DNA from: Lophium mytilinum
Lineage: Eukaryota > Ascomycota > Dothideomycetes > Mytilinidiales > Mytilinidiaceae
Assembly (NCBI GenBank): GCA_010093605.1
Contig: MU004201.1
Span: 276,834 to 340,833 of the forward strand
Reading direction: 5' to 3'
DNA: 64,000 nt
The stretch's first letter is position 1; the number at the start of each line of letters is the position of its first letter. This document shows positions 24,891-64,000 of this stretch, piece after piece. The position numbers and the translations under genes are program-made. A model generated the notes under the pieces. The model was not told the origin of the DNA and searched no databases. It saw only the letters and a program-made list of their open reading frames with translations.

Positions 24891-26332
24891 TAGCCATCTT
24901 TATCTATTTTGACGGGTCTAGGTTCTTCCTGGATCTGGCCTTCCAACGGCTCGTGCGTGATGCGATGAAGTAGCTATGGGTGGAAGGCGTTAAATACTCC
25001 CTTTATAGTACGTAGGAGAGACAGCTTATAGGCGGCGTTGTTGATAACCCTGGTGACTTTAAATGGACCGAGCTGTTTATGATCGAGTGACTTGTTCGGT
25101 CGTTGGGTCTTGATATTGCGTGCGTCCAACATGACTTGGTTACCGACTTTGAACTCTGTAGCTGGTTTTCGCTTGCGGTTGGCGAACTCTTCCTGTCTGG
25201 CTTGTACCCAAATCAATTTGTTACGGAGGAAGAGGCGGAGGTCGTTTAATCGCTCGGCGAGCGCATCGGCTTTCTCTCTGAGGGGCTTCTGTGGTCCTTT
25301 AGCTACGGAGTCGTTGGCTGGTTCAAGACCGGAGCGCGGATTGTACCCTTTTGTTGCAACGAAAGGAGAGACGCCGGTGGTTGTCTTGTCTAAATTCGCT
25401 TCGAATTCGGCAATAGGCAGGAGGTCGGCCCAGTTGTCTTGCTTATAATTGACATACGCGCGTAAATACTGTTTAAGGGCCATGTTGGCGATTTCCGTTT
25501 GTCCATCTATTTTAGGATGAAAAGCAGTGGAGAGCTTTGGCTTTGTTCCAACTCAAGCGCATAGCCGCTTCCAGAAGTGGGAGACGAATTGAGGGCCTTG
25601 ATCCGAAACGATTAAGTACGGGTATCCTTCTTCTCGCCATATCCATTTGATAAACGCCTGGGCGATGTCCTCAGCCTCCATGGAGTCCATGGCGATGAAC
25701 TTCCTCTTTTTCGAGAATTGGTTAACTACAACCATGATGTGTTTAAGCTTGCGACCCCATTGTTCGCAGATTGGCAGAGGAGTGATGAAGTCGACTGAAA
25801 TATAGTGCCAGTATCGGTCTGGAATAGGCAGAGGGCGGAGTAGTCCTTGCTTGCCTTCACGGGAGTATTTTGATCTCTTGCAAGCGAGACAGGCGCCGAC
25901 ATATTGGTCTATATAAGAGGTTATCTGTGGCTAGTAATAGTACTTACAGAGCCGTGCATAGGTTAATGTTGTCCCGGCGTGTCCAGCGGGCTTCGGCTCG
26001 TGCATGGATCGGATGATATGAGTGCGCAGTTGCTTGATATCCGGAACGTAGAGCCGCTTACGGATGTAGAGGAGGTTGTCAACGACTTCGCAATCGCCTA
26101 GTTCTATTCGCAAGTGATGATCTCGACAGAATTGCGCAGGCAGTCGTTGTTGGTTGCGGCGCTTGGCGTATTTGACAGCTTGTACAACAGGGTCGCTTTT
26201 GGAGTGCTTTTGGATCCTTTGAAGAATTTGATCACCCGTGAGGACTGCTTTAGATGAATCATTTAGCTCATTATCTGCAGGCAGTTTCTCGACAGTGGAA
26301 TTATATAGCTCATCCGCTGGGGGTGTCTTATC

Positions 26333-26425
26333 CTTCTTGGGGCGTCCTCGTGGGCGAGCTGGACCAGAGTCATTTATCTCGTCTGGTGTAGCTGCCGTTC
26401 GGGGCGTTTTCCTAGGGCGTCCTCT
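26333..26425 (-). other. Two AT-hook motifs in the RNase H to integrase linker of C1
   Basis: RGRPRK (26408-26425) and RGRPKK (26333-26350) sit 19 codons apart in a Pro/Asp/Asn-rich linker with repeated NDSG-like motifs. AT-hooks bind the minor groove of AT-rich DNA. Both are retained in C2 as RGRPKK (56222-56239) and QGRPKK (56312-56329), so they belong to the family. Confidence 0.75.
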
Positions 26426-29090: not shown

Positions 29091-31560
29091 TGGTTAGAGC
29101 CTACGCAAAACCCTCTCCCTCGCTGTTGTTGTTGCTGCTGCTGTCGCTCAGGACGCTGGAAGATGAGACTTCATCGGCGTGAGTGACGATAGCCAGGTCC
29201 TCTCTATCGCTGTTGATAGAGATTAGGTCGTCATCATCCTCGTCGGCGTAGCAGATTGCGGAAAGCTTAAGCTCGAGGCCACTGTCGGCTTTGGATAGGC
29301 GCTCGGTCAGCTTGCGCTTGGATAGAGGGGGGTTCTAAGCGCAAGGGCGCTTGGGGTTATTGGCTTGGTGACCCTTCTTAATGCAGTGGAAACAGTAGCC
29401 TTTAGTGCGCAGGACCGCTGTAACTGCGGGAGGGAGGTGAATAGGGCAGTTGCCCTGATCCTTGTTGTCGTCGCGAGTCGATGACTGTTGTGCGTAGCTC
29501 TGCTTGGGGCGGCGGTCTTGGTAGTTATTCAGTCGGTAATTACTTAAGCGGTTGTTGCGATAGCCATTGCGGAAGCCGGTTGGTTAAGAGGGCTAAGTAG
29601 TTGCGTTACGCTAAGCGTTGTTCTAAAGGAAGGCTTTAGCGCGGAATACCGCAGCGACAAGCGTAGGCCAGTCTGGATAGCTATTGGCGCTGCCGAACAC
29701 TTAGGCACTAAGGTCTGGGCGTAGAAGGCGTTCAAGCCATCCTTTCTTAGACGCGAAGGGCATCTAGTTCTCGTTGTTAATGTTAGTCATCTCTTTAAAA
29801 CGTAGCATGTACATGTCCTATAACTCGCGGCCCTTTATCTTTGCTTTAGGGCTGTAGAGGATATTATCTATATGCGCAGGCTTGTTAAAGATAGTAAAAT
29901 ATAGGTCCATGTACGCAAACATCTGGTCAAGAGTTGTAAAGTTCTTGTTTAGCAAGGGCTTCTCGAACTGGGTGTAGCTGCGGATGGTTGCTTCTGCGTA
30001 ATCGACGCAGTATAACTTAACGTATTCCATCTTGCTCTGCTTATCTGGGTAGGCCAGCCCTTTATGTCGGAAGACAGCGTAGGCATGGCTCTTCTAAGAT
30101 AGGTATCGGTGTTTGTCGCTCTTGCCAGCGAATTCCCAGAGGTTACGGAATTTAGGTTTATGGTCTCCGTGGAGTTGCAGGCGCGCGAGCTGAGTCATGG
30201 CATTATTATCTGTGACAGCGAAGTCGTCGCGATCAGCGTCGTCATCGTTGTTGTCTCCTGAGTTGTAGTTGAGGTCGCCTGCGGCGGCGGCGGCGGCGCG
30301 ACGTAACTGTGCAGGCGCTGATGCTGCTTTTCGGTTTACTTTTAAGTCAGTGTACTGCCGCTTGTATGTAAGGCCAAGTTCTTTAAAGTGATCGCGCTGG
30401 GTTTGTAGTTAATCTGAATCCCATTGTGCTGTGGCGACGTCCTGACGGAGGGCTTTATTTTCCAAGCGTGCCTCGCCTAGCAGGAGGATTTTGGCTTCGT
30501 AAGCTTTCCGTTCAGTCGTGAACTGGCGGTTGTGCTTAGTGTACGCCTTCTCGTTCTCTAATTAAAGACGCGCAATGTCTTTAGTTAGTTGGGTGACTTT
30601 GGCTTACAGGCGTAAGATCTTATCGGGGTCCTGAGCTTGGTTACGAAGGGTAGTTAGCTCGGCGTCTCGGGCTCGGCAATCCTCTTGAAGAGATTCTAGG
30701 TTCTGCTAGAACGTAGCGACTCCATGGTACATGTCTTTATAGTATTTAGGAACTGCGTTACGGAACGCTTTGGCAGAGTCGAGATTAATGTCAACGGCGT
30801 TGGCGACTCCATCGCGGTTGACGTGGAACGTAATTCCTTCGGCTGTTGTGGCGAAGTACGACTTGCGGCGGCTGGAGTTGCGGCGTGCTGGGCCTGGTGT
30901 AGGCGATTCTAGGTTAGGCCGTGATGGCATAGCTGTGGTGGAGGGACTCTGCGCTGATGGGGGTGGGTTGTCTGTGCGTTCCTCAGTGCGCTGGGCTTCC
31001 TAAGTGAATGGAAGGACTAGGCTGGCAGGAACGTTGTCGTTCTGTACGTTAAGGAGGTCGCCTTAAGCGAAGTGGACTACTTTCCGGAGGTCTGTGGCTG
31101 ACTAGAATTGGGTGTTGTCGTCTTCTTCGTTAAGTTCGTCGAGCTCCTGGTCTAGTTGTTCGTTGTCTTCCTCGTCGGAGGTAATACGGAACTCTTCGTC
31201 CTCTAGGTCGAGAGAGCGCTTGCTGCGCTGGAGGATAGTAGTTGGCTGGAGGCGGCTGTAGGCTGCGGCTGCACCTGGTCCAATAGTACCAGCCTTTAGT
31301 GTGTGGAGTTTGTTGCGAGCGGCTAGCTGCTCTAGGGTAGAACTGACACCGTACTGAGATAATTTACCTGCCTTTTTGCGTAAGGCTTTGGCGTGTCGGG
31401 TCTCTCGTGCTTACTAAGAGTTAGAGGCCAGTGTTGACTGGGTGGCTTGGCTGTTAAGGGTAGGGTATAGGTTAGTGTTGCCACTCTTGTCGGCGTGTAC
31501 GCCGCCAGAGGGAGCTTCTAAATGCGCTGCAGCGTGTTTACCGCGACTCGGTGTTGCAGG
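29091..31560 (-). pseudogene. gag: Element C1 gag
   Basis: It is one frame from about 31555 to the TAG at 29101-29103. The N-terminal part is Ser/Thr/Asn-rich and then very acidic (about 31250-31120). A start at MPSRPNLESPT (30930) is possible but the frame is open further up. Then comes a long coiled coil (about 30720-30420) and an Ala run. The capsid core follows (30030-29818, MEYVKLYCVDYAEATI). A zinc knuckle at 29341-29394 reads C-X2-C-X4-H-X8-C, with a longer last spacer than usual; C2 has the same spacing. The C-terminus is Ser/Asp/Asn-rich. Stops are TAG/TAA. Confidence 0.85.
29107..29113 (-). promoter_or_regulatory. Candidate -1 ribosomal frameshift site (GGGTTTT) at the C1 gag-pol overlap
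   Basis: In the gag frame the minus strand reads GAG GGT TTT GCG TAG, so the heptamer G GGT TTT is in the X XXY YYZ phase of eukaryotic -1 slippery sites, two codons before the gag stop. A -1 slip enters the frame that contains protease and the rest of pol. C2 has GGATTTT here (about 53541), so RIP destroyed it in that copy. Confidence 0.65.
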
Positions 31561-32095
31561 CGGTTAATTCTACTTGTGGGGTCTTAAATGAGGAGGGACT
31601 GGTGTTAGGGGGTTGCGCTAGTCAACCATTGCTAGTTAGGTAATGGTGGATAGTGTCCTGGTAGGTGGACGATAGTCCGGGTAGTGGGACGGAGAAAAAG
31701 ATTAATATAGGTAGAAAGGTTGTAGGGCCTTCGTGAGAGCTAGTAAGTAGACGTAGCTGGTGCGCTCCTTGGCGGCCTTTCTTGGCGGCGGAGTTGATCA
31801 GTGAATGACTGCGCTTGGTTTGGTTAGTTTGCGCATGCGCGTGCGGGTAGGGGCGCAACAGCAAGCAGGTTTATAGGGCCTGCGCGTTGGTTTGTATGCA
31901 CAACGGGGTGTAGCGTCCTTGCTATGAGGTTGTAGGGCCTCCTGAGGTTGTAGGGTCTCCTTCCGTTTCGGTTCCTTGTTAATGAAGGTCACGGGAATCA
32001 AATTTTAGTAGCTGTAGGGGCGCCGGTATGTATGTATATAGGTAGAGAAAGAGTGCTTCCGATGTCTTCTGGAAGCTAGGAGGGTAGCTACTTTA
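31561..32095 (-). other. Element C1 5' leader between LTR and gag
   Basis: About 530 bp of untranslated leader, matching 50525-51080 in C2. The short open frames here (31622-31864, 31798-32001) differ between copies and show no domain. The primer-binding site should lie next to 32095, but I could not identify the tRNA. Confidence 0.6.
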
Positions 32096-34479: not shown

Positions 34480-36505
34480 AGATATAATTAAAGAACACCT
34501 TTACAGCGACACTAGAGTAGCTAATAAATTTATAGATACTACTTATGCGCACTAAATAAACTTCCCTACCCGCCCCTTACCTAAATTACAAATACTTGAA
34601 TTAGCTAACGGCTCTGCCGTCGCTAAAAAGATTACCCATGAAGCTCTTATTCCCATCGCTATTTAAGGCTATTAGAGCCGCAAATAGGCCTATATTACCG
34701 ACCTCGGCGACTATAATATTATCTTAGGCCTCCGCTAGTTCTAGCGCTACAACCCGGCTATTAACTAGGTTACCGGCAAGATTAACTTTATAAAAAAGAA
34801 ATATAATAGGATTTTCTATCCATATTACTGTTACTATATAAACAGCACTAATAGCGCTATTACCTACGTAAAAGGCTTAGCACTACCTAATTTTATATAT
34901 AATTATAATATTATACAGCCTTCTAATTCTATAGACTCTGCGCAATGTATAGGCGTTACAGCCTACCTTACTATGCGCCGTATAGCCGCTGTTAAAGAAG
35001 ACTAACTTAATAATTTACCTTAACACGTCGCAGCCGACCTCGCTAATACCTGCAAGGATTTCCTAACTTGTTCAAATCACCTCCAGGTCGTAGCTATGCA
35101 AACGAGCAACGTACCCGTTTACCTCCGCAAACTAGCTATACGCGATATTAAGAAGTTTATAGAAGTTAAGCAACACTATACTAAGAAGGAAACGTTTACT
35201 TAACTCCCCCCTAGTCTTTATAAATACGTCCGCATCTTTAACTAAGTTAATGTAGACAGCTTACCGCTATACTAACTAGGCATAGACTATAAGATTAACT
35301 AGGTTAATAGTATTAACCTAAGTAAACTACCTAAAGCCCGCCTGTATTCTATATCTGCTAATAAACTTTATATTATTAAGAAATAGCTTAATAATAATCT
35401 AGCTAAGGGCTACATTAGACGATTATAATTATAAGTCTCTTTACCTATCCTCCTTATACGCAAGCTAGGGGGCGGTGTCTAGTTCTGCGTTAACTATAGA
35501 GCCGTTAACGCCCTTACCGTTAAAACTTATTATCCTATACCCCTTATATAAGAGATACTTTACTATCTTAGAAAAGCTAAGTAGTTTACTAAGCTTAACA
35601 TTATTGCCGCCTTTAATAAAGTCTGTATGGCCCTAGGCTATAAGTATAAAATAGCTTTTGCAATACGCTATAGCGAATACAAGTCCCTTATTATACCTTT
35701 TAGCGTTATAGGAGGACTAGAAACCTTCTAGTCCTTTATTAATTAAATACTGTATAACTTCCTTAATACATTCTATATAGCGTACCTTAATAATATCCTT
35801 ATCTATATAGGAGGCTCTAAAGCTAAATATAAAGCTTACGTTATAGCTATACTTAAATAATTAGACGCAGCAGGCTTATATATTAACTTATCCAAGTGCG
35901 CGTTTAATTAAAAAGAAGTTACCTACTTAGAACTAATAATCTTAACTAACGGAATCCGCATAGATCTAGAGAAAGTTGCCGCCATCCTTAAATAGAACAC
36001 TCTAACCTGCATTAAGGACGTCTAAGCCTTTATCGGGCTGTCTAATCTTTACTAGCGATTTATATACGGGTTCTTATATATTATTAAACCTCTTACTAAT
36101 ATAATAAAGCTTTAAGAGGGATAGAAAAAAGCCCGCTTCTTATAGATAGAGGCCTATAAAAAGGCCTTCCGCGCGCTTAAGAAAGCGTTTATAGAAGTAC
36201 CCGTCCTTATGCACTTCTAATACGGTAAGAAGGTCTTCCTTAAAATAGACGTTTCGGATTACGTAATAGCCGGCGTTATATCCTAAATTAGACCTAACAG
36301 CCTACTATATCTAGTTGCCTTTTTCTCTTCTAAGATGTTACTAGCTAAATGCAACTACGAGATCTATAACAAAGAACTCCTTGCCGTAGTTATAGCTTTT
36401 GAAGAGTAGAGACCCGGGCTCGCGAGCGCTAACTCTAAAGACCTAACCAACATTCTTATAGATTACTATAATCTAGAATAGTTTATAACTACTAAGAAAC
36501 TTAAT
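34480..36505 (+). pseudogene. pol: Element D pol: protease, RT, truncated RNase H
   Basis: The protease is at about 34520-34760: F-I-D-T-T marks the mutated active site, and YNIILGLR is the later motif. RT is at about 35440-36080: the fingers read IRKLGGGV near 35455, and the catalytic box at 35783-35794 reads YLNN. RNase H starts at about 36230 (LKIDVSDYVIAGV) and keeps NYEIYNKELLAVV near 36360. It breaks at KKLNY (36505) where E begins. Integrase is missing. Confidence 0.8.
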
Positions 36506-36659
36506 TATTATCTCTTCTTCTTGCAAAGTCTACTCTAGGCAGCATAACGGCTACGGCCTTATCTTTAAAATATAATTAAGGTTATCCTCTCCTACTCTCT
36601 CTCCCCCCTTAGTAGACGTAATTCTTACTCCTATAACTATCCCGCCCTCTACTACTATA
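36505..36659 (+). repeat. Element E 5' LTR, truncated (155 of 247 bp)
   Basis: It matches 48885-49039 of the 3' LTR from ATTATCTCTTCTTCTT on and ends CTACTATA where the 3' LTR ends CTACCACA. The first 92 bp or so are absent and are replaced by element D sequence. Confidence 0.85.
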
Positions 36660-36663
36660 TAAA

Positions 36664-36681
36664 TGGCGACCAGCACAGGAC
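36664..36681 (+). promoter_or_regulatory. Possible primer-binding site of element E
   Basis: TGGCGACCAGCACAGGAC begins four bases after the LTR. TGG is the complement of a tRNA CCA end, and the position is right for minus-strand priming. The matching tRNA was not identified. Confidence 0.45.
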
Positions 36682-36969
36682 TTTAACAGTAATAGCCTCG
36701 TCCTTAGAAAAAGCAACTAGCTAAGTTTCTTATCTCCTTCTAAGTCTATAATAGAGACGTCTATCTATCTTTCCTAGTATTAGTTGTAAAGCAGTCTACG
36801 AATTAGCGGCAGTAGTGGCCTATTATTAGTTTAGCATTACTAGTCAGCCCGCAGCCTCTGCAGCCTGTTATTAGTCTTTCTAGTTTATATTAGCTATTAT
36901 ATTCTACATTAGCCGCCCCATACAGTTACAGCCTTACTATCTAGAATTAGTCCTGCCGTTTAGCTATAG

Positions 36970-37064
36970 TCTTTCCATTCTACTACAGTCTTTCCATTCT
37001 ACTACAGTCTTTCTATTCTACTACAGTCTTTCTATTCTACTACAGTCTTTCCATTCTACTACAG
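36970..37064 (+). repeat. Tandem repeat, 5 x 19 bp, in the element E leader
   Basis: Five copies of TCTTTCCATTCTACTACAG start at 36970, 36989, 37008, 37027 and 37046; two have a C-to-T change. They lie in the leader, about 0.6 kb before the gag start. Pyrimidine-rich relatives of the unit (CAGTCCTTCTATTTCA) occur in the second leader near 44960. Confidence 0.9.
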
Positions 37065-37652
37065 TCCTGCTATTTAGCCGCGGCCTCCCTGTTTGCATAG
37101 CGGCCTATAGCTGTGTTATCTTCGGGGCATCTAGGGGACCCTAAGAATTGCCAAGAAGGTTATTTACTTTTAAGGCTGCCCGCAGGCCTGTGCTTTCCTT
37201 AGTATTGGAACTATTAGCCGCACTCAGCAAAGCGGCTAAAGCGGCCGAAGCTAGGATACCGCTATTAGGCCCAGAATCAGCACCGGCCATTATACAGAGA
37301 CCTCCTGGCCAGTAGGATGGCTGCCCGGCAGCTAAGAGGCGACTATTACGGGCATCAGGCCCACCATCGGATGCAGTACCGATGGCCTTAGGAACGCCGG
37401 AGTCGACAGAGCGAGCGCCTATAGGGGGTGCGACTCGTAAGAACGGCCACGCGGAGGCCCCGGCTAAGGGAAGAAACGAAGTGGCGGTTACCACGGGCGC
37501 AGGCAGATGATATATTTAAGGAAGCGTTCCCTTAGGTCGGAAAGAAGACTTAGCAGCTCCTATCAGCCGTCTACTTGTTATCATTCCTGACTACTTCTAT
37601 TATTATCTCAGCCATCCGCGGATTCCTGGTCGCCCTCGCACCTATCGATAGA

Positions 37653-40438
37653 ATGGCGGACTTTACTACCTTTCCGCACCTAGCGGCAGTAGACGGAGAC
37701 AGCATTTTAACCTCTCGCCCGCTAGGTGAACACCATGAGGACCTTGCTCCTAAAGGGCAGGCCCGCGCGGAGCCTACTTAAGAATAGAGCACTAATCCTC
37801 CTCTATCTAACGCGATCATGAACCCGGCGTCCGAATCTTGTTTCTAGGGGCTAGGTATACCTTAGGCCACAGGTGCGCCCATGCCAACGGTACACCCGCA
37901 GGAAATCCGCATCATCCATCCGCTGCCTGGGCTTAGATCTCTAGAGTCCCCTCAGTTCACGGGCGTTAATGTTACTTAGTTCCTCCGTGACTTTAAAGAC
38001 ATGTGCTCTCGCTATTACGTTACAAGCGGTGATAATAAGATTAAGAAGATACTGGAATACTATAGCGAGCACATCAGGGAATGGCTTTAGACGACCCCGG
38101 AAATCACTTTGCCCTTCGCTGGTTGGACGGGCGTTGTACGCATGATAAAGAAGGAATTCCGTTTATAGAATAGCCACGCCAGGGTCGCTAAACTAGAGTT
38201 CCTGGAGGAATATGTGAAGGTGGCAAAGGCAAAACACGAGTCTGGGGAGATGTTTGATATTAAGCAGTACTGCCGCGAGTTCACTACCATCTCTTAGTAC
38301 GCTGTTACTGCCGGAAACCTAATAGACTATAAGCGCGGATATAAGTTTATTATGGGGCTCCTAAAGAAGTATCGCATGAAGGCCATAAGCAGGGCAAACG
38401 CTCTTGCTAATGACAGGACGACCTTCCACTTTAAGAAGCTGCGCCGTGCGGTCCTGGAAAGCTATCACGCTCTTCGGGGCGCTAAGCAGGTGGGAGAAAC
38501 GGATACGGACAGCGTCGCCCTGTTAGTGTCAGCATTTCAAGGAGAGCAGCTACCTGCCACCTTGGCATCACCAGCATCCGGCCAAGCGTCCTACGGAGGT
38601 GGCTATCATGCGCAGGAACCAGCAGCGGCAGCATCTACGGCGCCCATTGCGGTGCCAACCATCCGTTAACCAGCTCTATTAACGGATACGAACATAGATA
38701 TGATCACGGAACAGCTTCGAGGGCTAAAGCTCAACGCGGTAGAACTTACTAATTACATTTCCAAGTACCCGATGATTGATTAGGCCTTCCGGAACCCCAC
38801 TAATCTGCTCCGTGCCGGAAACGCTGCTGCCGTTTAAGTCGTTCCAGCAGCACGCGCTATGCCAGCTCGGGAATCTACTGCACCGCTAACGCGTCCTCCT
38901 TAGCAGTACGGTAGCTATAGCGGAGGTGCCGCCGCACAGAGACCTGGAGTAATGGAATGCTTCGGATACGGAGAAGTAGGCTACGTCTGGGGACGCTGTC
39001 CGCAGATTGAGCGCCTTGTGGAATTCAACCTGGTGCACTTGGATGGCTATCGCCTAGTTCCTGGAAGGAAGGGCCATCCTGTTAGCGACTTTGAATGAAT
39101 GCTGGAACGTAATCGCGTATAATATGTTAAGGACATGATTATTAGGAACCGTGGCGATCTAGAAAAGCCAGCACCTTCCTCTACCGCTGCTCCTACAGCC
39201 ACGGGAGGCCAGGTCACCGCAGTTAGTGTAGGCTTCCAAGAGGCCTACGCGGAGGATGGAGAGGAAGAAGAATTAGGCCAGAACTGGGAAGATGAATTTG
39301 GCGTGCAGGACCTTTTAGTTGACTACAGCGTCAGCGCAGTAGCCAACAACACTAGAGGAAAGGCCCCCGTGCGTGCTCCTGTGCAGGGAGGGTCGAGAGT
39401 ATAGAAACTAACAAACGGTCCGCAAAAGGCGACTGTAAGGACCTCTAGGCCTGGAGATTACGCGATGCTAGGACGGGCCCTTAAGGAACAGGACGGTGAA
39501 CGTTCTCAAATAATGGACTACAAGGCTGGGCCCCAACAGGGTGATGGAGGTTAGCCCCGTCCGCCGCGAGTGAAGCCCGTACGAATAATGGACCTTCTAA
39601 GGCAGAAGGCCGCCCTAATGACGGGAATCGTGGAGAACATGATAACGGCCACGGTGGAGATGTTAATTGCCGATATGCTCGTGCATATGCCTAATGCTGC
39701 AAAGCTATTCTTTAAGCCGCTAAGCCCTAATCTGGCGGAACCTATACAATAAGAACAGCAACAAATGATCTAGCAGCAGCTATCGCAGCCACGATTTGGG
39801 CCCGGAATACGTACTATTGGCGAAGTGGCATCTATTAATGCTCGATACTTCCCCGCCGCGGATATAGCTGGAATGAATGCCAGCGAGATACTGTGTATAG
39901 AAACAGATGCAGGCTTTACTAGGTATTGTAGGCCGTGCCCGCAAGCATAAATTACTATCGGAAAGGGACGGTTAAGCGCGTTAGTTGATTCTGGAGCAGA
40001 AATGAACATCATTTAGGAAAATGGGGCCCGAAGAATAGGCCTACCGATTGACAGTCTTCCAGGGGAAATGGCTAGAGGAGTGATGACGGCCGCAAACGGT
40101 ACGACTACCGGCTTCTCTGGCGTCATACGCCGTGCCGACGTTAGTATTAGTGGCGTCACTACTCCAACTAACTTTGTAGTGGTTTAAGATATAAACTACG
40201 ACGTAATTCTCGGCGAGCCGTGGTTATGTTAGGTTAGCCTGGAAACGAAACGAACGCCAGCAGGAGGAGTGACCTGCCTTATTACTGCCCCGAACGGGTC
40301 AATCCGCACGAGCTTCACGGCCATTTATAAAGAAGTAGGCTTCCTCCGTCCCGATGAATCTATGGAGGTGGGGGGGACGCGATTTAAGAGTATAGGCGCC
40401 AGCATTATTAGTGCGGGAAACGCCATGCCGGGGCAATA
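37653..40438 (+). pseudogene. gag: Element E gag-protease
   Basis: It is one frame. The start at 37653 (MADFTTFPHL) is preferred; an in-frame ATG at 37575 is possible. A gag capsid core lies at about 37940-38500 (PQFTGVNVT, FLRDFKDMCSRYYV). Then comes a CCHC knuckle at 38958-38999 with the exact spacing but Tyr in place of the second Cys and of the His. An acidic segment follows (about 39230-39320). An aspartic protease has D-S-G-A-E at 39987-40001 and DVILGEPWL near 40205. Gag and protease share one frame; pol is in the -1 frame. Interrupted by TAG, TAA and one TGA (39096). Confidence 0.8.
40370..40376 (+). promoter_or_regulatory. Candidate -1 frameshift site (seven Gs) between protease and pol of E
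   Basis: The gag-protease frame reads GTG GGG GGG ACG, so G GGG GGG fits the X XXY YYZ phase. The -1 frame entered here continues into RT with only TAA/TAG breaks, while the gag frame ends at the TAA at 40436. An ordinary indel in a G run is the alternative. Confidence 0.45.
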
Positions 40439-43400
40439 ACCAGTGTTGCTTCGGTAAGTGCTAGTATTCCGGTATTAGATCTCCCACCGTCCGGGGAGAA
40501 CCCTATGGAGGCCAGGCACAGCACGGCGGACGTCTTCGGGTGGAGGAAGTTACCGTTGGAAGCTCGACAGCGAGATGTGGAGAGCGCAAGAAAGAAGACG
40601 GATGCTACGCACGTGTTTGTGGCACGAGCAAATGGCTTATGCTATTAATTAATAAGGGAAACAGACCTCTTTAGAATGCAGATAGAGATGCGGCAGCAGG
40701 ACGTTAGACGCCAACAGCTTAACGGTACTGCTAAATATCGACAACGCAGCGCTAACGTTGCTACGCTGTACAAACGAAAAGCGGACAAGGTGCGGCCAGT
40801 TGATTCCTCGGAACAGGATTGCGTGGGTTTAGGGGGAATTAGGGAATGGAAGGAGAGGGCCAAGCAGCGCCAACAGTTGTTGCTTAATGAATAGCAGGCC
40901 GCGGGCCATAACCTACCCACCGGGCGTTTCGACGATGTGCTGGAGGCACGCTATGCGCCGTTTCCCTGTGGAACTCGGCTAACGGACGAACGCATGAAGA
41001 AGCTTCTAGTTGGAACCCACTTGAAGTCTCAGGAACTTAAGCTGCTAAAGGAAATGCTGCACCGATAAGAGGGGGCCCTATTGTTCGATTTCACAGAGAT
41101 GGGGCGTGTTCATCCTAACGTCGCGCCGCCACAAAAGATCAGGACTGTCCCTCACAATGCCTGGCAGGCAAAGCCCTTTCCCGTTCCAAGGAAGCTCCAA
41201 GAGACCGTGACGGAAATGGTGAGGGAGAGGCTCGAGAAGGGAACCCTAGAACCGTGTTAAAGCCCGTGTAGGAACCCATGGTTCCTTATAAAAAAGAAGG
41301 ATAGGAAGTATCGCCTTATTAACGCGGCAATGAAGATTAATGCTGTTACTATTCGGGACGCCAACTTACCGCCAACTGCGGATAAGTACTCTGAGGAGTT
41401 TGCATGCTGCAAGGTCCTCTCGCTTATTAATTTCTTCTCCAGCTACGATTAGATACCCCTAGACCCGGAGAGCCGTAATCTTACTGCATTTATAACGAGC
41501 CTAGGCCTAATGCGTTAGACGACACTACCGCAGGGAGGAACGAACTCAGTCGCGCAGTTCGTGCGCATCATCCTTGAGATTCTTAGCGATCACGTTCCTA
41601 CAATTGCGCTACCCTTCCTGGACGACATAGGCGTAAAGGGGCCCAAAACGACTTACGGGAACGAAGAATTAATGCCGGGCATCCGGCGCTACGTGATGGA
41701 GCACATTCAGAACCTGGACGCCGTCCTGGCTGATCTCGAACGGGCCGGATGCACTATCAGCGGTGCCAAATCCTTCTTCTGCGTGGAGGAGGTCGTAATC
41801 GTCGGGTATAAGTGCAATGGGACGGGAAGGCATCCGAATAACGATAAGGTTGAAAAGATCGTTAATTGGAAGCCGTGCAATTTAGTGACAGCAGTGCGGG
41901 CCTTTCTAGGTATTTGCACGTACTTTCGCATATAGATTAAAGGATACGTAAGCGTTGCTAAGCCCCTCTTTCGGCTGACTAAAGTAACCGTGAGATTCGT
42001 ATGGGGACCTAAGCAGGCTAGGGCGATGGAGTCGTTGAAAAGGATGCTAACTTCCGCGCCTGCGCTGGTTAGCCTTGACTTCAGTGACGGGGCAGGAGAA
42101 ATCATACTCGCCGTAGATGCTAGCACCGGCGGATAGGGGTGCTGTTTAATGCAGCTTGACGCTGAAGGACGGCAGCACCCTGTGCGATACAAAAGTGGCA
42201 TCTAGTTATCGGCGGAACGGAAGTATAATGCTGGGAAACTTAAATGCAGAGCACTACTACTATTACTAAAGAAGCTTCGCCGATACCTCTACGGGGCAAC
42301 ATTTACGGTGGAAACGGATGCAAAAACGCTAGTGGCTCAACTTAACAGGGCTGCGACGGATCTTCCCGGCTCTTTGATAACACGGTGGCTGGCCTAGATA
42401 CAGCTATGGGACTTCTAGGTTCGTCACGTACCTGGGAAAAGAAACGGCGCTGCAGACAGGCTCTCTTAACGTCCTCCGGATAATGATAAGGTCCTGGAGG
42501 AACTATATGAGGACATTGATGCATTCATTAATAGTAAGATTGGAGCCGTAAGATTCGACATCTCCCCGGCGGCAGCGGGGCATGCAGAGGATGCCACAGA
42601 GGAGGTGTATAATGCGCAGCTGGCAGAGGGGTATTTAGAGGAATCGGAGCGTATCGCCGCCTGGCTAACAATAATGCAACGCCCCGCAGGCATGGATCGA
42701 AAGGAATATCGCTCGTTTAAGAAGAACGCCTGCCGATTCGTTGTTCGAGAGCGCTACCTCTTCCGCCGTCAATCTAAAAACGTGCCTATTCAACGGGTTA
42801 TTGATGACCCGGAGCTGCGCAAGGAGACCATTAGAAATCTCCATAACGATGGGGCTTATCGCGGGCGAGAAGGGACGTACCAGCGAATAGCTTACAGATA
42901 CTGGTGGCTAAACCTCTAGCAGGAAGTCTGCACCTTCGTTACTAGCTGCAAGGAGTGCTAAAGTCGAGCATTAAACCGTACGCAAGAGGCCTTGCATCCT
43001 ACTTGGGAGAGTGTGCTGTGGGAACGGGTATTAATTGACATCGTTAAGCTGCCAACCTGCAGAGGTTTCCAATTTATCATCGTCGCCCGAGAATACGTCT
43101 CTGGTTGGGTAGAGGCTCGTGCTCTGCGGAAGGCCGACTTAAAATCTGTTGCAAAATTCCTATACGAGGACGTTATCACGCGCTACGGTCTAATGGGGAG
43201 GCTAAACGTTAATGGTGGAGGAGAAAATATGGGGGAAGTGCTCTAGATGCTCGCACTCTATAGCGTTAAACGCGTCCAGGCCTCGGCGTATTACCCAGAG
43301 GCTTAGAGCCTCATTAAGCGCGGCCATCGCCCTATCCTAGACGCCCTGGTAAAGATGGGAGGAGACTAACCACAGAATCTCTTCGCCGTACTATGGGCAG

Positions 43401-44460
43401 ACAGAACGACTATGCGCATTAGCACGGGCATAACTCCAGCCAGAATGCTCTTTGGGCAAGAGTATATCCTTCTAATCGACCTCGCCATCCCAACCTGGCA
43501 GGCACTCCCGTGGAATACCGTGCGCACTACTGCGGATCTCCTTGAGCTGCGCGCTCGCCAATTGCAACGTCGCAAGGAGGACGTTAAGGAGGCTGTGGCT
43601 CGGACTATACGCCACCGTCTGAATAACAAGGAGGAATTTAACGGCCGGAAGCATATACGGGAGGCCGGGTACGCAGCTGGCGATATAGTACTTCTCTGGG
43701 ACAGCGTGCGAGAGAAGGATATAAGTAGAGCTAGGAAGCTAAGCCCCCGATGGCTAGGCCCTTTCCGCGTTTGAGATGGGACCGCCATGGGATCCTACCA
43801 GCTCGAGGAGCTTGATGGCATAAAGTTCCGCGGCAGAACGCCTAGCAGTTGCCTGAAGTTGTTTATCTAGAGGGACCCTAATAGCGTGGCGGCTAAAGAC
43901 CGCCTAGAGAGAATAGGGACAGCTCCGGAGGACGACGCCCCGAACGAGGCGTGGTGGGAACCTATTAATCCCGCGTATAACGAGCGGCCGCCCGCTCTTA
44001 ATAGTACTTCTGTTCCTAAAGCAATTACAGATGAGCCTGACTTTAAACAAGAGCTGCCTCCGCGCCTGCAGCATGAAGTCCGCATTACGATCCCGCAGGC
44101 GTTTAACCGGGATAAATACCAGGCCTTTAATGATAACGGGGCGCCCGTGCTGCCTGCGCCCATAGCCCCTTAGCCTAGTGTTTGTATTGTTCCCCTAGTA
44201 AACTTTAATCCCGACGAGTATACGCGCTTTAAGGAGGAGGACCTTATTAATTTTTCCAATTTAGATTGATTCCTGCGCGCGTGCAACTTGCTACCTAGGT
44301 ATTTAATTCGGGGGCGTTCGATTATGGGACAATCTCGTAGGTGGGGAGGAGGACCTGAGCCGTGCCTGCTCATCGTTAGCAAGTTGCAAAAACCTGGGTT
44401 TGACCTCACGCCCTCACCCTATTACGACTTCACGACGTTTTCCTTAGTTTCCGTTTCCTG
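40377..44460 (+). pseudogene. pol: Element E pol: RT, RNase H, integrase (no chromodomain)
   Basis: RT is at about 41150-41940: FLIKKKDRKYRLINAAMK near 41290, and an intact FLDD box at 41615-41626. RNase H is at about 42080-42460: VDAST and ETDAKTL are kept, and CRAL is preceded by K where E is expected (about 42244). In the integrase zinc region (42842-42960) the first His and both Cys are kept and the second His has become Tyr (42857-42859). In the integrase core Asp is at 43037-43039, the second Asp reads Asn (43211-43213), and Glu reads Lys (43316-43318), each explained by one TG-to-TA change. The C-terminal DNA-binding part includes PRWLGPFRV (43747-43773). A Pro-rich tail follows, without a chromodomain. 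Confidence 0.85.
44338..44349 (+). promoter_or_regulatory. Internal copy of the element E polypurine motif (TAGGTGGGGAGG)
   Basis: The same 12 bases occur at 48572-48583 and at 48779-48790 next to the 3' LTR. This copy lies just after pol, preceded by GGGACAATCTCG, which resembles GGGACGACTCC before the terminal copy. Confidence 0.7.
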
Positions 44461-45230
44461 AGGTAATGCGCGGGCAAGGTAGAAGTGATGGTATTGTGCG
44501 GATTGGCGCCAGAAGAGACTGCTAATAAGGCGGTGAGCGACCTGGCTAATCAAGAGTTTTCGTGTCGGATTCTGCCGTAACATGAAAACTTGTAATTGGC
44601 TGGATTAGACATTACGTTTACTGCCTAGTCCGGATAGCAGTATATTCCGTCCCGCTAACCGCATATCTATTACTACTATCACTACTATTACCGCCCACCT
44701 CTCCTTTCTACCTATAACCTCTTCCTCTTTCTATTTAAGCCTTTTAAGTTCTATATAGCCTTAACCACCAGCAAGAATAAGTCCTGCTGCACGCCAGAAG
44801 CTGCCTGCGCAGCCTAAGAGTGCCTACTCTTAATAACGCTATCCACGGTTGTTGCAGACTACCCAATCTTGCTTACAGACTACTTATTCCTGTATGCAGC
44901 CTTACCATGCTCCTCTAGTCTTCGTAAGAACAACTGCACGAGCAACCTTACTATCTACAGTCCTTCTATTTCACCTTCAGTCCTACCACCCTACTTCAGC
45001 CTTTCTTCCTTAAGCTAAGGACGGAGCGCACGCCGCTCACCGCCTCTCTGCCAAAGAGACACCGCCAGTATCGTGCCTCCCCTCTTAAGAACCTCACCTT
45101 CTTCTGCTTTCCTCCTTAGCTCCTGTCAGTTAATTATTAGCTGCCGTCCTCCTCTAGCGCTTTAAGCCTTCTCCATTCTGTCCGCCCTCCAGCACCATCT
45201 GCCAGATCCATCGCCAACGAGCCGCCCGCA
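44461..45230 (+). promoter_or_regulatory. Intergenic region with possible promoter for the element E cargo gene
   Basis: There is no coding signal. Long pyrimidine-rich runs (CCTCTTCCTCTTTC at 44718-44731) are followed by TATTTAAG (44732-44739) and a roughly 490-bp C/T-rich leader ending at the cargo start codon. CT-rich tracts near a TATA-like box are usual in fungal promoters. The region therefore suggests an independent transcript, but that is inference. Confidence 0.4.
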
Positions 45231-48206
45231 ATGGCGTCTTCTTCTTCCAGCCTGGTTCCGGTCGCCACAGGCAGTGCCTTTTGGTTTAATTACCAGGGCA
45301 AGATGACAACCGTTAATGATGCGCTCGCAGCCATTGCGGAATTTACCCTGAAAATGAGAATGCAATTATATTACTACTTTGTGGAATGCGTCACCGACGT
45401 CCAGGAGCACATTAACACGGCTGCTCAATCTATTCTTGACGTAGCAACGCGAGACGTCCAAGCACGCGCGCTCCTTACTCCTGCGCAGTTCAAAGAGGCA
45501 TTCCGCCCGCTCACTGAGGTTGCCCAGATGACTTGAGATAGCCGCACCCGCGCAGTCGCTGCTAGGGCCAAGGTTCAAGAGGTCTTTGGCGACCTAGTTA
45601 AGGAGAAAATTAGGGTCCTCCGCCAGATCAACACTACGCACGGAGCACCTATCGTCAATAGGTACCTGCGGACCTATCCTAGGGACTTTAAGCGGGTAAA
45701 TAGTGCGCTGCTTACCCGCCTTACCACCCAAGCCTCTGCTAGGAAGACCCCCCACCTTATAGCTGTTGACTTCATCACAGCATTAACGCCGATATATCAA
45801 CCTTAATACTTCTCGAACGAGGTTATTCTTTCCCTTGGCCTCGGGCGCCATCCGCTGGGCTTCTTACTTCCCCTTAGCGATCTACCACCGGTAATAGATC
45901 GCTTTACCACGGTTCCGCCCGATGCATTGTCCTTAATCAAGCTCCCTTATCGAAGCGCGCCGCCCTCTCGCCTAGAAACCCCCGTCAAGGCCCCTCCTTA
46001 AGACGTTGAGATGGCCTCCCCTATGTCGTCCGCGCTGTCCTCCCCTAGGGATGTCGGAACCCCTTAATTATTTGGTTACCCGTCGCCGCACCCAAAGCCC
46101 CAAGACACGCTTCCAGCCCCCCGAACGACTCGTACCTTCCTGGCTGCCGTGGACTACAGTGAGCTGGACCTAGAAGAAGACGAGGCCCTGCTGGAGGACC
46201 AGGTTGAGTCCCTGGTCGCCCTAAACTCAGCACCCTCCCGATGCACCTGCGATTCCTCCGTGCAGCCTGCTCTTAAAATAAAGCTGCAGTCTAAGACAAG
46301 AATAACTGATTTCGAGCGCATGCGAACACTGACCAGCTGGTTCAAGAATACTGGCCCCAACCCATCTCGCTGCTTCGTCTGCTATCACCATACGCGCGCG
46401 ATGGCAGCCCACCTAGGCCTTAAGAGCGGCCACGGGACCTACATTTAGCTGATTTCGAGGCTCCGCTATATCTATAACCATCGCGAAACCTTTAGTTCCT
46501 TAAAGGTAGCTAATAACACATTTAGTTGGTTCCGCAAGGAGGCTCGTCCACCCGTCCTATTTGATGAGCTTAGACCCTACCGTTTTAATCACAACACTGC
46601 AGCTACTTGTGGATCCAACTTCAAGGTCCCTGTCCTTTAACTCTAGCAGCGGATTCTCGGCTCTAAGGTCCTATTAGATGCCTGGCATAGGGATGGCACT
46701 ATTGTTCTCCCAGACGCTTTTAGATAGTGGCGATCCAGCGGTCTCCTAGCCATCTTCCACGAGGAAATGGAGATGTATTTGTGGCACCAGCGAGTAATTA
46801 GCGGCCGCCCGAACTATGGTTGGCTGCGCTCTATGGTGCACGGACTTAGTTAGCAGGTTATAAGGATAGATTCTTAGTACTACCGGCAATATATTGCCCT
46901 TCGCCCGGACCATTAATGGTGCCTAGTCTCCTTTCCGTACTATGCTAAGTTTGCTGTTCCCGGCGATTATACGGCATTCCAGCACATTAATCTAAATATT
47001 AAGGAGTTAGTGCTATACGACCGCGGAATTAACGCCCTTCAAGGCAGTATTTCCCTGGATGATGAGCGAAATGATGACTGCACTTAGCTGGTTTTCGGCA
47101 TGCACAGGAACATTTAGAACTAGTACCAGCGCATGGTGAGCGAGAATTGCCCCCTCGCAGATGGCAAGGTTTAAAGCATCAACAGCGAGATGTGGAATGC
47201 GGAAGACATTACGCTCTATGGCGACTTCTAACCCCAGCCCGTGAATAACTGTGGAGTTTGTATCTCTATGCCTTATCTGCCCTATGGCGCGCTTAGCCCT
47301 TGCAAATAAGTCCGCCGCACCCTCCTCCCCTGGTTTGTAGGCATTTAGAAGGATTACGTCTATCTAGAGATTACGGAAGGCACTACGTGGCCGGAAGTAT
47401 CCCAGGCGGCGCGCGACCTGATAATGACGAAGAAGACACTCTCTGGGCATGCCTTTATATACGGCACCGCACCCTATTAATTCCCTGCAGCCGTGGAGCT
47501 TAATCCCCCTCGCGCCATCTATGCTGCACTCCTTGGGCTGCGGAAGTGGGATTTGCCCGCTATTCTTGCCGAACGAGACTTCCTTCTTACGGCGCCTTAG
47601 GCAGAGGTTGACAAGTGGATGCACTAGTACCGGAAGGACATCACTAGGGAGGTAGAGAAGGCCTGGCCCCTTATCTAAGCGGCTGAGCGCAAGGTTTTCG
47701 GCGACAAATTATACTTCAAGTACATGGACGAGAACAGCCACAAGCCGCGCGATTACTAGTATCCTGACAATCCTTAATATAGGCCTTTCCCGCCCGCTAC
47801 TAGCAAGGACATGAACGCAGAGAACGCAGCCTTAATGCCCTATACTAGCACCCCCGATGACTAAGCCGCTGCCGCAGCTGCGGGTCTTTAACCTATTGCT
47901 GCACCTGCTGGGCTCTATTCCCGATCTTCCTCCTCCGCATTATCGTCCTTAGCTGCCTCAGGACGTCCCCGCACTTTCTTTTCTGCTAGCCGTGGAGGAG
48001 GAGACAAGCTGTTGAAACAGGTGCACCAGAGATCGCTGTCTGGCAGTGGTGGAGACTCCTTTCTTAGTCTTAACTCAGCCTTACAGCAGTCGGCCTTATC
48101 TTTAAAGGGAAAGGGTAAGGAGCGCGCCTCCCGGAAGGGCTCGCCCATAATATCACGGCGGAGCTCTCGCTCTCATAGAGATTCTCCTCTGCCTCCCCCA
48201 CCTTAG
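45231..48206 (+). pseudogene. Element E cargo gene: large protein with 2OG-Fe(II) oxygenase-like region
   Basis: A single frame of about 992 codons runs from MASSSSSLVP to a Pro/Ser-rich end. There is no frameshift and about 25 stops, all but one TAG or TAA. The N-terminal 300 residues are helical and then Pro/Ser-rich. The part at about 46150-46450 is Cys/His-rich. The part at about 46600-47420 resembles a 2-oxoglutarate/Fe(II) oxygenase. H-I-N (46983-46991) would be the HxD motif with Asp to Asn. GSISLDDE and LVFGMHRNI follow. P-Y-L-P-Y-G (47271-47288) would hold the distal His, mutated to Tyr. RRTLLPWFVGI follows with the Arg expected to bind 2OG. The C-terminal 100 residues are basic and Ser-rich. 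It lies between pol and the 3' LTR, and its function is unproven. Confidence 0.55.
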
Positions 48207-48377
48207 CCGGAATCTTAATGGGACTAGGAAACTCATCTATTTTCCTTCCGTTGCTGCCTTTGTCTCCAACGGAACCTCTACTACCTGCGCGGCTTCCTGT
48301 CGCCACTGCAGTCTATCCGCTGCCTATGCGAGTTTACATTTCAAATAACTTGCGCCCACTGCGGAACGAGCGACTCG

Positions 48378-48449
48378 TTGCGAAACGAGCTTGCGCTGCG
48401 GAACGAGCTCGCGCTGCGGAACGAGCTCGCGCTGCAGAACGAGCGCGGC
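48378..48449 (+). repeat. Tandem repeat, about 4 x 18 bp, after the cargo gene
   Basis: Units start at 48378, 48396, 48414 and 48432. The central two are identical (CTGCGGAACGAGCTCGCG) and contain the palindrome CGAGCTCG. A diverged unit precedes them at 48359. The array could fold as a set of short hairpins in the 3' untranslated part of the transcript. Confidence 0.85.
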
Positions 48450-48571
48450 ATTCCCCTTTCCTTCTATAAACTGCTAAGTTTATTTCTACAGCCTACCCGT
48501 TCTATAGCTAGGCTGTATTAGTCTTCCCATTTCTCTGGCTAACCTTATTAAGCCATCGCTGCACCAGCTTC

Positions 48572-48583
48572 TAGGTGGGGAGG
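48572..48583 (+). promoter_or_regulatory. Second copy of the element E polypurine motif
   Basis: TAGGTGGGGAGG, preceded by GCTTC, lies about 200 bp before the terminal copy. Confidence 0.7.
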
Positions 48584-48778
48584 CCGCCACTAACTAACAC
48601 TCTCTGTTTTCCTGCCCACCCCTAACTATCACCACGGCTAAACTTTCTATGCTTCTTTCCTTAGTTCTCTACAATCTCTATTCCCTTAGCTACCTAGTCT
48701 TCTGTTTGTAGCAGTCCTTAGCGATTCTTAGTGTCTATCTACCTTACACGGTCTACTGTATCGTCATGGGACGACTCC

Positions 48779-48790
48779 TAGGTGGGGAGG
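48779..48790 (+). promoter_or_regulatory. Terminal polypurine tract of element E
   Basis: TAGGTGGGGAGG ends two bases before the 3' LTR. It is the expected plus-strand primer. The second family copy has TAGATAGGGAGG at the same place (63693-63704). Confidence 0.85.
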
Positions 48791-48792
48791 CA

Positions 48793-49039
48793 TGTGGTAA
48801 GGTAGATCGGTGCAGGTATGCGAGCGGCACGTAATAAGCGTCTAGGCCCCTTCTTAATTGTGGAGGGCGGAGCTTCATCATCTATTATCTCTTCTTCTTA
48901 CGAAGTCTGCCCTAGGCAGCACGACGGCTACGGCCTTATCTTTAATATAATACAATTGAGGTTATCCTCTCCTACTCTCTCTCCCCCCTTAGTGAACGTG
49001 ATCCTTACTCCCTTAACTATCCCGCCCTCTACTACCACA
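48793..49039 (+). repeat. Element E 3' LTR (247 bp)
   Basis: It starts TGTGGTA and ends TACCACA, a perfect 7-bp terminal inverted repeat. It matches the truncated 5' LTR (36505-36659) and a third copy at 63707-63951. Element B2 follows immediately. Confidence 0.95.
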
Positions 49040-50304
49040 CTACTAGTATATATAGTAAAGGAAATTAACTAGTTCTATAATAACTATACTATCTACTACT
49101 ATTCTAAGTACTCCTAAGATAAGAAATATAGTTTCTTAAGGCCCCTACCTATTCTAAATAAGCGCTAGCAGTATCTTAGCATTAACTATATTGCTGCCCT
49201 ACCTAAATGCATCTATAGAGGTATTATATATAAGTATATTATAGTAGTCTATAATAGACTAACTAAACACTGCTACTTTATTTCTATAGATAGCCTTAGC
49301 TCTAAGGCTCTTATATAAGCCTTCCTTTCTATCTTTACACTTTACGGAGTCTTAGTCTATCCTCTCTAATAGAGGAAGTAACTTTATCTCTAAGTTCTAG
49401 AGACGGCTCTGCTAACGCCTAGATATCTCTCTTAAGATGTCTACCGCCTTCCACCTAGAAATAAATGGTTAAACTAAATATTCTAACTAAGAACTTAAAG
49501 AATATATTTAGAAATATATTAATTATGCATAAGATAACTAGGTAGACTAGCTATCTATTGCGGAATTCTAAGTAAATAATACTATTTATACCTCTACTAG
49601 TATAACGCTCTTTTTTATAGATACCGGCTACTACCCTAGCACCGGCCTTAAACTAGCTATCGCTGTTATCTAGATCTAACTAGTAGAGGTAAGAAAGAAA
49701 TATACATTGCTAATAATATTACTATATCTATAGAGAACCTTACTTAAGTTCTTTAAGAGAATCTAGCTTAGGCTTAGGAATAATAAGCTAAGTACGCTAA
49801 TGCACACTAAGTAGACGCTCCGCTATTTAAGATAGGAGACCTAGTCTATATTAACACTAGGAACTAGAAAACAGAATAACTAGCTAAGAAACTTAATAAT
49901 AAGTACGCCGGCCCTTACCCTATTATCTATATTATACTAGAAAGTAAAGCTATATAAGTATAGCTTTCTAAATACCTTAAAGTAGAAGGGATATTTAATA
50001 TCTTCTACTTTAACCTTCTACACTTATATAAGCCCGACTCTATTCTATTATAGGCTTAACCTAAACTATAACCTATCTATATAGTTTAGAATAAAAAAAT
50101 AAAGACGCAAAAAGAAGAGTACCTTATAGATAAGATTATAGATAGCCGCTATATTAGATAAGGAGTTTAATATAAGATTAAGTAGGTAGATAACTCTAAG
50201 TACTACTAGGAGCCTTTTAAGACGTGGATTAACTATTATAACGCTTAGTTATTCTACTAGAAGTACCCGTGTAAGCTACGCCCGCCTACCTAAGTTCTAC
50301 TACC
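49040..50304 (+). pseudogene. pol: Element B2, part 2: integrase and chromodomain
   Basis: It is nearly identical to B1 from about 6497 to 7755. It begins in the integrase zinc-binding region and continues through the core, the C-terminal module and the chromodomain (EEYLIDKIIDSRYI near 50120). Element C2 interrupts it at 50305; B2 continues at 58243. Compared with B1, about 1.4 kb of B between RT and this point is missing, because of the deletion that joined D to E. Confidence 0.85.
50300..50304 (+). repeat. Target-site duplication of C2, left copy (CTACC)
   Basis: CTACC here and CCACC at 58243-58247. The one difference is a CA-to-TA change. B1 has the uninterrupted site CTACCGCCCGG. Confidence 0.8.
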
Positions 50305-62648: not shown

Positions 62649-63680
62649 TGTTATAGCTATATAATTGCGCATAACACGTAACTAGAGGTTACGTAATAGA
62701 GGCTCTACGGAATAGGTAAATATTGCTCTGTATTTTAGGTTCTTATAACGTCCGTCCTAGAAACCTCTTTCTCTCTTATATTTATCTTATATTAAGGGCA
62801 CTAATAATTCTATACCGGGTTTTTCCTCTATATATACCGTGTAATTCCTCTATATATACCTACTTACGTCTAATCTTCTAATTAGCTTAGAGGGCTTGGA
62901 ATACTGCTCCGGCGCTTTATAGTAAGGCTGTATAGCCTTCCTATTTTATTATGCATTCTTACTATTTTTAATAGACTATACTTAGTCGCGCGTAAGGCTA
63001 TAGATAAGACTATATATATAGGCCGTGCGCAAGGCTATATATAAGGCTGTATTTATAGTAAGGCTATATAGTTATAGTAAGGCTGTATAGTATACCCGTT
63101 ATACTATATATACTCCCTGTTTCCTATAGTATATAGGCTATTATATTACTATCTACGTGCCTGCGTGCCTATAAGCATGCTAAAACAGTTAAATTCTTAC
63201 CTTATTACGGCCTCTCCGCATTAAACCTAGCCCCCCTACATCGCCCCTGCACCCCCCTAGCTATTCTAATCTATTAACGCCTCTATATACTATTTATATA
63301 TTACTATCTAATATTAGAGCTCCTTATAAGAAAGCAGCGCTAGCGCTGCCTAAGGCTAAGGAGCTAGCTAAGGGGGCGGCTGGAGGGCTATAGTAAGAGG
63401 TGTATTATAGAGGAAGAGATTAAGAATAAGATTATAATTGCTTATAGCTACGCCGCACTTAGAGAGAGTATTTAGAATTAGTAGTAAACCTAAGCGAGCG
63501 AATTAGAGGCCTTATAGGGCCTCTCTAGACCAATTAGAAGATTAGATATAAATGGGTGTATATAGAGGAGAAAACAGGTATACATAGAGGAAAAACCTAG
63601 TGTAGGATTATTAGTCCCCTTTATTAATATTAATACTATTTAATTTAATAATTCCGATGTTCTAACCCTAAGCTCTAACA
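62649..63680 (+). repeat. Element I 3' LTR, split by an 824-bp insertion
   Basis: It starts TGTTATAG and ends CTCTAACA (inverted repeat TGTTA/TAACA). After removing the insert and one copy of its 8-bp duplication the LTR is 200 bp, identical in length to the copies at 10245-10444 and 11538-11737. CACGTA (62675-62680) and TTACGTAA (62689-62696) look like two former CACGTG boxes. Confidence 0.9.
62796..63619. mobile_element. Non-autonomous DNA element with about 90-bp terminal inverted repeats (824 bp)
   Basis: The first 90 bases and the reverse complement of the last 90 align with about 80 percent identity: GGGCACTAATAATTC against GGGGACTAATAATCC, and later CTAATCTTCTAATTAG against CTAATCTTCTAATTGG. 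Flanks TATATTAA (62788-62795) and TTTATTAA (63620-63627) match at 7 of 8 positions. The family I LTR at 11538 shows the site without the insert. There is no coding potential inside; several short AAGGCTGTATAG-like repeats are at 62920-63090. An 8-bp duplication suggests hAT-like mobilisation; the long inverted repeats would also fit a Mutator-like element. Confidence 0.85.
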
Positions 63681-63951
63681 CGGGATAACTTCTAGATAGG
63701 GAGGCATTTAGTAAGGTAGATAAGTGCAGGTATATAGGTAGCACGTAATAAGTATTTAGGGCCTTTCTTAGTTATAGAGAAGAGAGCTTATTATCTAATA
63801 TCTCTTTATCTTATAAAGTTTACCCTAGGTAGTATAACGGCCACGGCCTTATCTTTAATATAATATAATTAAGGTTATTCTCTTCTACTCTCTCTCCCCT
63901 TTAGTAAATGTAATTCTTACTCTTATAACTATTCCGCCCTCTACTGCTACA
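63681..63951 (+). mobile_element. 3' end of a second family E element (polypurine tract and LTR)
   Basis: 63681-63706 matches the bases before the 3' LTR of E (GATAACTTCTAGATAGGGAGG against GACGACTCCTAGGTGGGGAGG, in part). 63707-63951 is the LTR, ending CTGCTACA. Because internal sequence precedes the LTR it is not a solo LTR. It is heavily RIP-mutated, unlike E. Confidence 0.8.
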
Positions 63952-64000
63952 CTAACTAAGGTTATTATAGGAATGAAGAAGTTTAAGTAATAGTAAGAGG
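63952..64000. other. Unassigned end of window
   Basis: 49 bases right of the E-type LTR. Nothing recognisable. Confidence 0.6.

Follow-up and report, generated by a model that had tools for sequence, protein, structure and literature searches.

Remains of a 2-oxoglutarate-Fe(II) oxygenase gene, with many unstudied fungal relatives, in a decayed Ty3/gypsy retrotransposon of Lophium mytilinum

Results

A broken oxygenase gene downstream of pol

The stretch of DNA analysed here (the window) comprises 64,000 nucleotides of the ascomycete Lophium mytilinum (assembly GCA_010093605.1, contig MU004201.1, positions 276,834 to 340,833 of the forward strand) and holds a decayed Ty3/gypsy retrotransposon. 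Between its pol gene and its 3′ long terminal repeat (LTR) lies an additional plus-strand open reading frame, ORF3 (45231..48206), which frame analysis, homology searches, alignment and shuffles identify as a broken gene for a protein of the 2-oxoglutarate (2OG)-Fe(II) oxygenase family. ORF3 runs for 992 codons in a single frame, with no frameshift, 26 internal stops (13 TAA, 12 TAG and 1 TGA) and a final TAG. By comparison, the best plus-strand frame of 500 dinucleotide shuffles contained 40.2 ± 4.0 stops, and only 1 of the 500 was as low as 26. Homology argues more strongly than these stop counts that the frame is real. A protein search with residues 470–850 of the frame (X at stops) retrieved 13 proteins, with E values from 7e-109 to 2.5e-28 and 31–48% identity. 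The tblastn segments of one relative, P0002, fall on ORF3 at C21:322124-322765 and C21:322835-324565; because their starts are 711 bases apart, both share one frame. An uninterrupted 992-codon frame free of frameshifts, as proposed in a preliminary description of the window made from the letters alone, is thus borne out by frame analysis, shuffles and homology.

TGA accounts for 1/26 of the stops in the ORF3 frame, compared with 12/44, 18/63, 4/32, 7/56 and 14/74 in the remaining five frames, a scarcity expected if most of the stops are transitions to TpA. With 26 stops and the loss of two ligand positions described below, the window copy appears to be dead, probably through transitions of the type produced by repeat-induced point mutation (RIP).

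Iron and 2OG ligands are conserved among the relatives

Residue counts were taken from an alignment (A3) of 122 relatives and the window frame. The tripeptide H-I-N at 46983..46991 occupies the H-x-D iron site of the relatives, in which the His is present in 121/122 and the Asp in 120/122. A Tyr at 47283..47285, the second Tyr of a PYLPYG motif, stands at the distal iron His (His in 121/122 relatives), and an Arg at 47316..47318, the second Arg of RRTLLPWFVG, takes the place of the 2OG-binding Arg (Arg in 117/122). These motif positions agree with those first described, and the proposal that the HxD and distal His of homologues would align at 46983-46991 and 47274-47285 survived the comparison. 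All four ligand residues occur together in 114 of the 122 relatives, while the window copy is without the Asp and the distal His; the relatives that deviate include P0039, which likewise reads HIN, and P0066, which likewise reads PYG. The match to the PhyH profile stops at this Arg, or one residue past it, in all 8 relatives for which a match was displayed.

Upstream of these ligands, a C-x-C and a C-x2-H motif (codons 46242, 46248, 46380 and 46389; 46242..46391) form a possible zinc site, all four residues of which persist in the window. C-x-C is found in 109/122 relatives, C-x2-H in 115/122 and the complete cluster in 107/122.

The predicted fold of a relative is of the PhyH/DUF1479 type

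The predicted structure of P0002 contains a double-stranded beta-helix (DSBH) oxygenase domain at about residues 488–790, which by homology would correspond to 46641..47546 in the window (limits approximate). The best fold matches of this model are DUF1479/YbiU/GIG2 and other PhyH-type enzymes. PhyH is likewise the only one among the Pfam 2OG families to match the relatives scanned: its gathering score (PF05721) was passed by 5 of 20 relatives scored, and precomputed PF05721 annotation is attached to 8 of the 120 relatives listed. The DSBH in the P0002 model and the ligand columns kept in the relatives support the earlier suggestion of a 2OG-Fe(II) oxygenase fold.

Membership of the TET/JBP or AlkB families, which had also been suggested, fared otherwise. 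The Pfam TET/JBP and AlkB profiles (the latter being the profile we take to represent AlkB-type 2OG enzymes) matched nothing in the window frame (E≤10), in 12 relatives from profile A2 (E≤10), in 10 relatives (E≤5) or in 10 named relatives (E≤0.1), and no TET structure appears among the 50 fold matches listed. Searches of the PDB with the A2 profile and with the sequences of the window frame, P0109 and P0118 gave matches that include no oxygenase, and NCBIfam searches of six relatives gave nothing approaching a cut-off.

Intact relatives in other fungi

Intact homologues, which the preliminary description had proposed to seek in other ascomycetes, do exist. A search with residues 480–740 of the intact relative P0004 found 139 proteins, of which 120 were listed; the named species among these include Sclerotinia borealis, Venustampulla, Rhinocladiella, Coccidioides, Xylona (two), Aspergillus granulosus, Penicillium majusculum and several lichen fungi, which we take to represent several classes of Pezizomycotina. 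Because the named species among the listed relatives are few, the distribution suggests a patchy, mobile-like family. In a FastTree phylogeny of 122 rows (A3 minus P0014) the window frame is sister to P0002 (support 0.94), with long branches. The relatives are large: 104/122 exceed 600 residues, and 99/122 cover most of the N-terminal part. A search with profile A2, which scored the 7995 candidates sharing most words, returned only P0002, and A2 scans of viral and of genome contigs yielded 21 and 11 pattern stretches, respectively, with zero relatives among them.

ORF3 recurs in the same genome

ORF3 is common to several copies of the element family in this genome. At L011, the end of ORF3 continues unbroken into a 3′ region and LTR matching those of the window element, with 69–70% identity. 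At L009/L010, this 3′ end is preceded, at a distance of 1.7 kb, by a 0.9-kb ORF3 fragment (66% DNA identity, and 45% protein identity over its longer part). A tblastn search of the 43-Mb genome with P0002 and P0013 placed ORF3 relatives at no further site.

Architecture of the host element

The order of domains upstream of ORF3 is that usual for Ty3/gypsy elements: reverse transcriptase, RNase H, integrase zinc-binding and Tf2-1-type SH3, followed here by ORF3 and then the LTR. The pol region (40649..44173, outer limits approximate) is broken by stops, and Pfam matched it in separate plus-strand pieces within 41519-43774. RT_RNaseH (8.5e-9) and Integrase_H2C2 (2.3e-7) scored above the Pfam cut-offs, RVT_1 (8.3e-6) and SH3_Tf2-1 (0.0036) below them, and a protease and an integrase core went undetected in the pieces searched. 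The pol described at first as complete is therefore in the usual order but broken. Similarly, the placement of ORF3 inside a pair of LTRs holds fully on one side only. The 3′ LTR (48793..49039, plus strand) is 247 bp long, reads TGTGGT...ACCACA and has the same ends as several LTR-only matches at other genomic sites, whereas the 5′ LTR is a remnant (36506..36659, plus strand) missing about the first 90 bp, 89% identical to the 3′ LTR over 153 columns up to 36655, with its end at 36659 set by comparison with 49030-49039. An LTR copy at L015 (C10:1542580-1542821) is 92% identical to the 3′ LTR in the window, above the element's own 5′ remnant, and no internal part of the element was found in the 10 kb around it (L035). 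Near the end of the window, at 63679-63952 on the plus strand, lies an LTR of the same family with a polypurine tract (79% identity).

A plus-strand region with few stops in one frame (37500..40500, limits approximate) is gag-like, although Pfam gave no relevant match to it. Within 38904-39098 it contains C-x2-Y-x4-Y-x4-C, which looks like a decayed CCHC zinc knuckle; its loss of ligands to Tyr is of the same kind as that at the distal His of ORF3.

Directly 3′ of pol, a polypurine-tract-like 12-mer (44338..44349) is an exact copy of both tracts that precede the 3′ LTR, one at 48572..48583 and the other, 207 bp downstream and adjoining the LTR, at 48779..48790, all on the plus strand. If G-to-A changes are allowed, the pair is also present at L011 and L034, and L010 has only the upstream member. 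With up to 2 mismatches the 12-mer occurs 4 times in the window, compared with a shuffle mean of 1.09 and at least 4 in 3/100 shuffles; the argument is carried by the exactness of the three copies and their places, not by the count. Because these polypurine-like repeats flank ORF3, we infer that the ORF3 module is a later addition, lying 3′ of a tract that marks an older 3′ end. We considered whether the segment before ORF3 duplicates the 5′ leader of the element and dropped the idea (local score 48 compared with a shuffle mean of 37.7; 9/200 shuffles as high); the likeness of this segment to the LTR is not above shuffles either (96/200 as high). Short direct repeats, mostly 18 bp apart, lie between ORF3 and the LTR at 48347-48444 on the plus strand. 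An Rfam search over 36000-49300 gave zero matches.

Discussion

A probable extra gene of a gypsy family

We conclude, with a probability of roughly 0.8, that ORF3, which lies on the sense strand between pol and the 3′ LTR, is an extra gene of a Ty3/gypsy family and ancestrally encoded a 2OG-Fe(II) oxygenase of the PhyH/DUF1479 type. This reading draws directly on the frame and its homology, the fold predicted for the closest relative, the conservation of the ligands, and two further copies in which remains of ORF3 precede the shared 3′ end. Several points weigh against it. The evidence for the fold is a model of P0002 and would reach the window frame through homology; the frame itself has no Pfam match (E≤10). 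Of the relatives scored, 15/20 fell below the PhyH cut-off or gave no match, and the PhyH match omits the HxD in P0112 and P0123. Gln or Trp is the commonest residue at only 5 of the 21 stop columns covered by at least 40 relatives, so that a RIP origin for each stop would go beyond what these counts support; since the relatives are distant, the comparison decides little. The Asn and Tyr had been explained at the outset as RIP products of Asp and His, and the Asp and His of the relatives fit; the RIP step itself is presumptive, however, as the heavily decayed L009 also reads Tyr at the distal His position. Older shared ligand loss in the lineage and parallel decay may each account for Tyr in both copies. 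Both further genomic copies keep fragments of ORF3 only, and since its presence on a retrotransposon rests on one genome, the gene may be element-borne only here. As to function, there is no direct pointer to a nucleic-acid substrate, and a protective role within this window is weakened by a neighbouring gypsy element that RIP has altered equally little (see below).

The alternatives differ in what the protein was and how it came to lie here. The element might simply have transduced a metabolic PhyH-type oxygenase gene with no role in its life cycle. Judging by their titles, many PhyH-type structures among the fold matches are enzymes that act on small molecules, and extra ORFs occur most often between pol and the 3′ LTR (PMC7264820); yet tblastn found no copy outside the element family in this genome, remnants of ORF3 are present in three old copies, and the relatives, by their length and N-terminal coverage, are not bare enzyme domains. 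We regard such a passenger as less likely than not, though nearly as probable as the role favoured below. A DSBH protein with a binding or structural function in place of catalysis is improbable given that the four motif residues are kept together in most relatives, and the copies in this genome that lack some of them are decayed. The polypurine-like repeats, which show that something was added after the older 3′ end, might also be taken to mean that ORF3 belongs to another mobile element nested in the gypsy element. We give this slightly less credence still: repeats other than the polypurine tracts were not found at the edges of ORF3, both arms of the longest inverted repeat (30 nt, 77%) fall within ORF3, and two other copies have ORF3 remains ahead of the element's 3′ end.

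Least probable, and far from favoured, is a TET/JBP or AlkB-type enzyme, an eraser of a class already known, with which the element would strip methylation from DNA or RNA. These enzymes share a fold superfamily with the ORF3 relatives and do travel on mobile elements, TET/JBP on fungal DNA transposons (PMC12730594) and AlkB on orchid gypsy elements (PMC9289625), and since HMMER filters discard weak matches, a very remote link is conceivable. Against this stand the Pfam results, which return PhyH in their place, and the best folds, which are of the DUF1479/PhyH type.

A possible role for the ancestral protein

As an extra gene of active gypsy elements, ORF3 would have encoded about 900–1000 residues, laid out as an N-terminal helical part, a disordered linker, the C-x-C/C-x2-H cluster and the oxygenase domain. 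The protein presumably bound Fe(II) through H-x-D and the distal His and 2OG through the Arg, and would then have oxidized its substrate. Translation would start from an ATG of its own, in a different frame and roughly 1 kb downstream of pol, which implies a separate message or reinitiation. Tentatively, and with weak support, we think that the protein most likely modified nucleic acid or chromatin by oxidation and thereby aided the element against host silencing. It is more doubtful that, in a gypsy lineage across Pezizomycotina, the PhyH-type oxygenase carries a nucleic-acid-binding (Cys/His) module of its own and oxidizes a DNA, RNA or chromatin mark of silencing; if true, this would be a new class of retrotransposon-encoded counter-silencing enzyme, in fungi that practise RIP.

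Relation to known systems

The domain fold and the HxD...H...R arrangement of the ORF3 relatives are those of PhyH (PF05721) and of DUF1479 proteins (YbiU, Candida GIG2), although the matched chains, unlike the ORF3 protein, are 244–451 residues long. We know of no C-x-C/C-x2-H cluster or mobile-element context for PhyH/DUF1479 proteins such as YbiU and GIG2.

Ty3/gypsy elements of the orchid Phalaenopsis carry an additional ORF for an AlkB-type 2OG-dependent dioxygenase with demethylase activity in vitro (PMC9289625). Like the ORF3 element, they are gypsy retrotransposons with an additional ORF whose product has a 2OG-Fe(II) oxygenase fold; they differ in their plant host and in encoding an m6A demethylase of the AlkB family, whereas ORF3 is fungal, of the PhyH/DUF1479 type and has a long N-terminal part. 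Fungal DNA transposons and Helitrons carry TET/JBP, and a 2025 survey remarked that no retrotransposon had one (PMC12730594). These too are mobile elements of fungi with a 2OG oxygenase, but the carrier of ORF3 is a retrotransposon and its oxygenase belongs to a different family.

Plant elements are known to carry additional ORFs in the interval from pol to the 3′ LTR (PMC7264820), and the Botrytis element Boty carries an antisense gene, brtn (PMC7264820, PMC8365987). The brtn gene and plant env-like ORFs share the position of ORF3; brtn, as described, is antisense and ORF3 sense. The title of Zhao 2011 reportedly also calls brtn antisense. We ruled out brtn as a relative on this ground, and a Monilinia chromodomain protein described as similar to BRTN (PMC5987419) does not suggest an oxygenase. 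No ORF of this kind is apparent in the material drawn on from a paper on Coccidioides transposons (PMC5872316). In the mainly open-access literature searched, titles, the openings of abstracts and selected passages showed no oxygenase of the PhyH or any other 2OG family in a retrotransposon of fungi. ORF3 thus looks like another oxygenase subfamily, in fungi, apparently acquired independently. With its different 2OG oxygenase and the 139 relatives from one search, this gypsy family offers a defined enzyme family with intact members for assay, and makes retrotransposon-encoded modification enzymes against silencing a directly testable question.

RIP in the window

In fungi, transposons are subject to RIP and to cytosine methylation. 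We calculated two RIP indices, TA/AT and (CA+TG)/(AC+GT). The flanks in the window carry a strong RIP-like bias, suggestive of Pezizomycotina, with values of 1.54–1.98 and 0.26–0.52 in eleven 4-kb blocks outside 24001-32000 and 36001-48000, compared with 1.31 and 1.00 in the ORF3 element. At 24001-32000, where ORF3 was not seen, the indices are 1.06–1.46 and 0.96–0.98. We rejected the idea that ORF3 acted as a shield against RIP because this neighbouring element, which has no visible ORF3, is equally little altered. It is a second GC-rich Ty3/gypsy element, on the minus strand at about 24974-32000, whose reverse transcriptase, integrase zinc-binding and Tf2-1 SH3 domains all score above the Pfam cut-offs.
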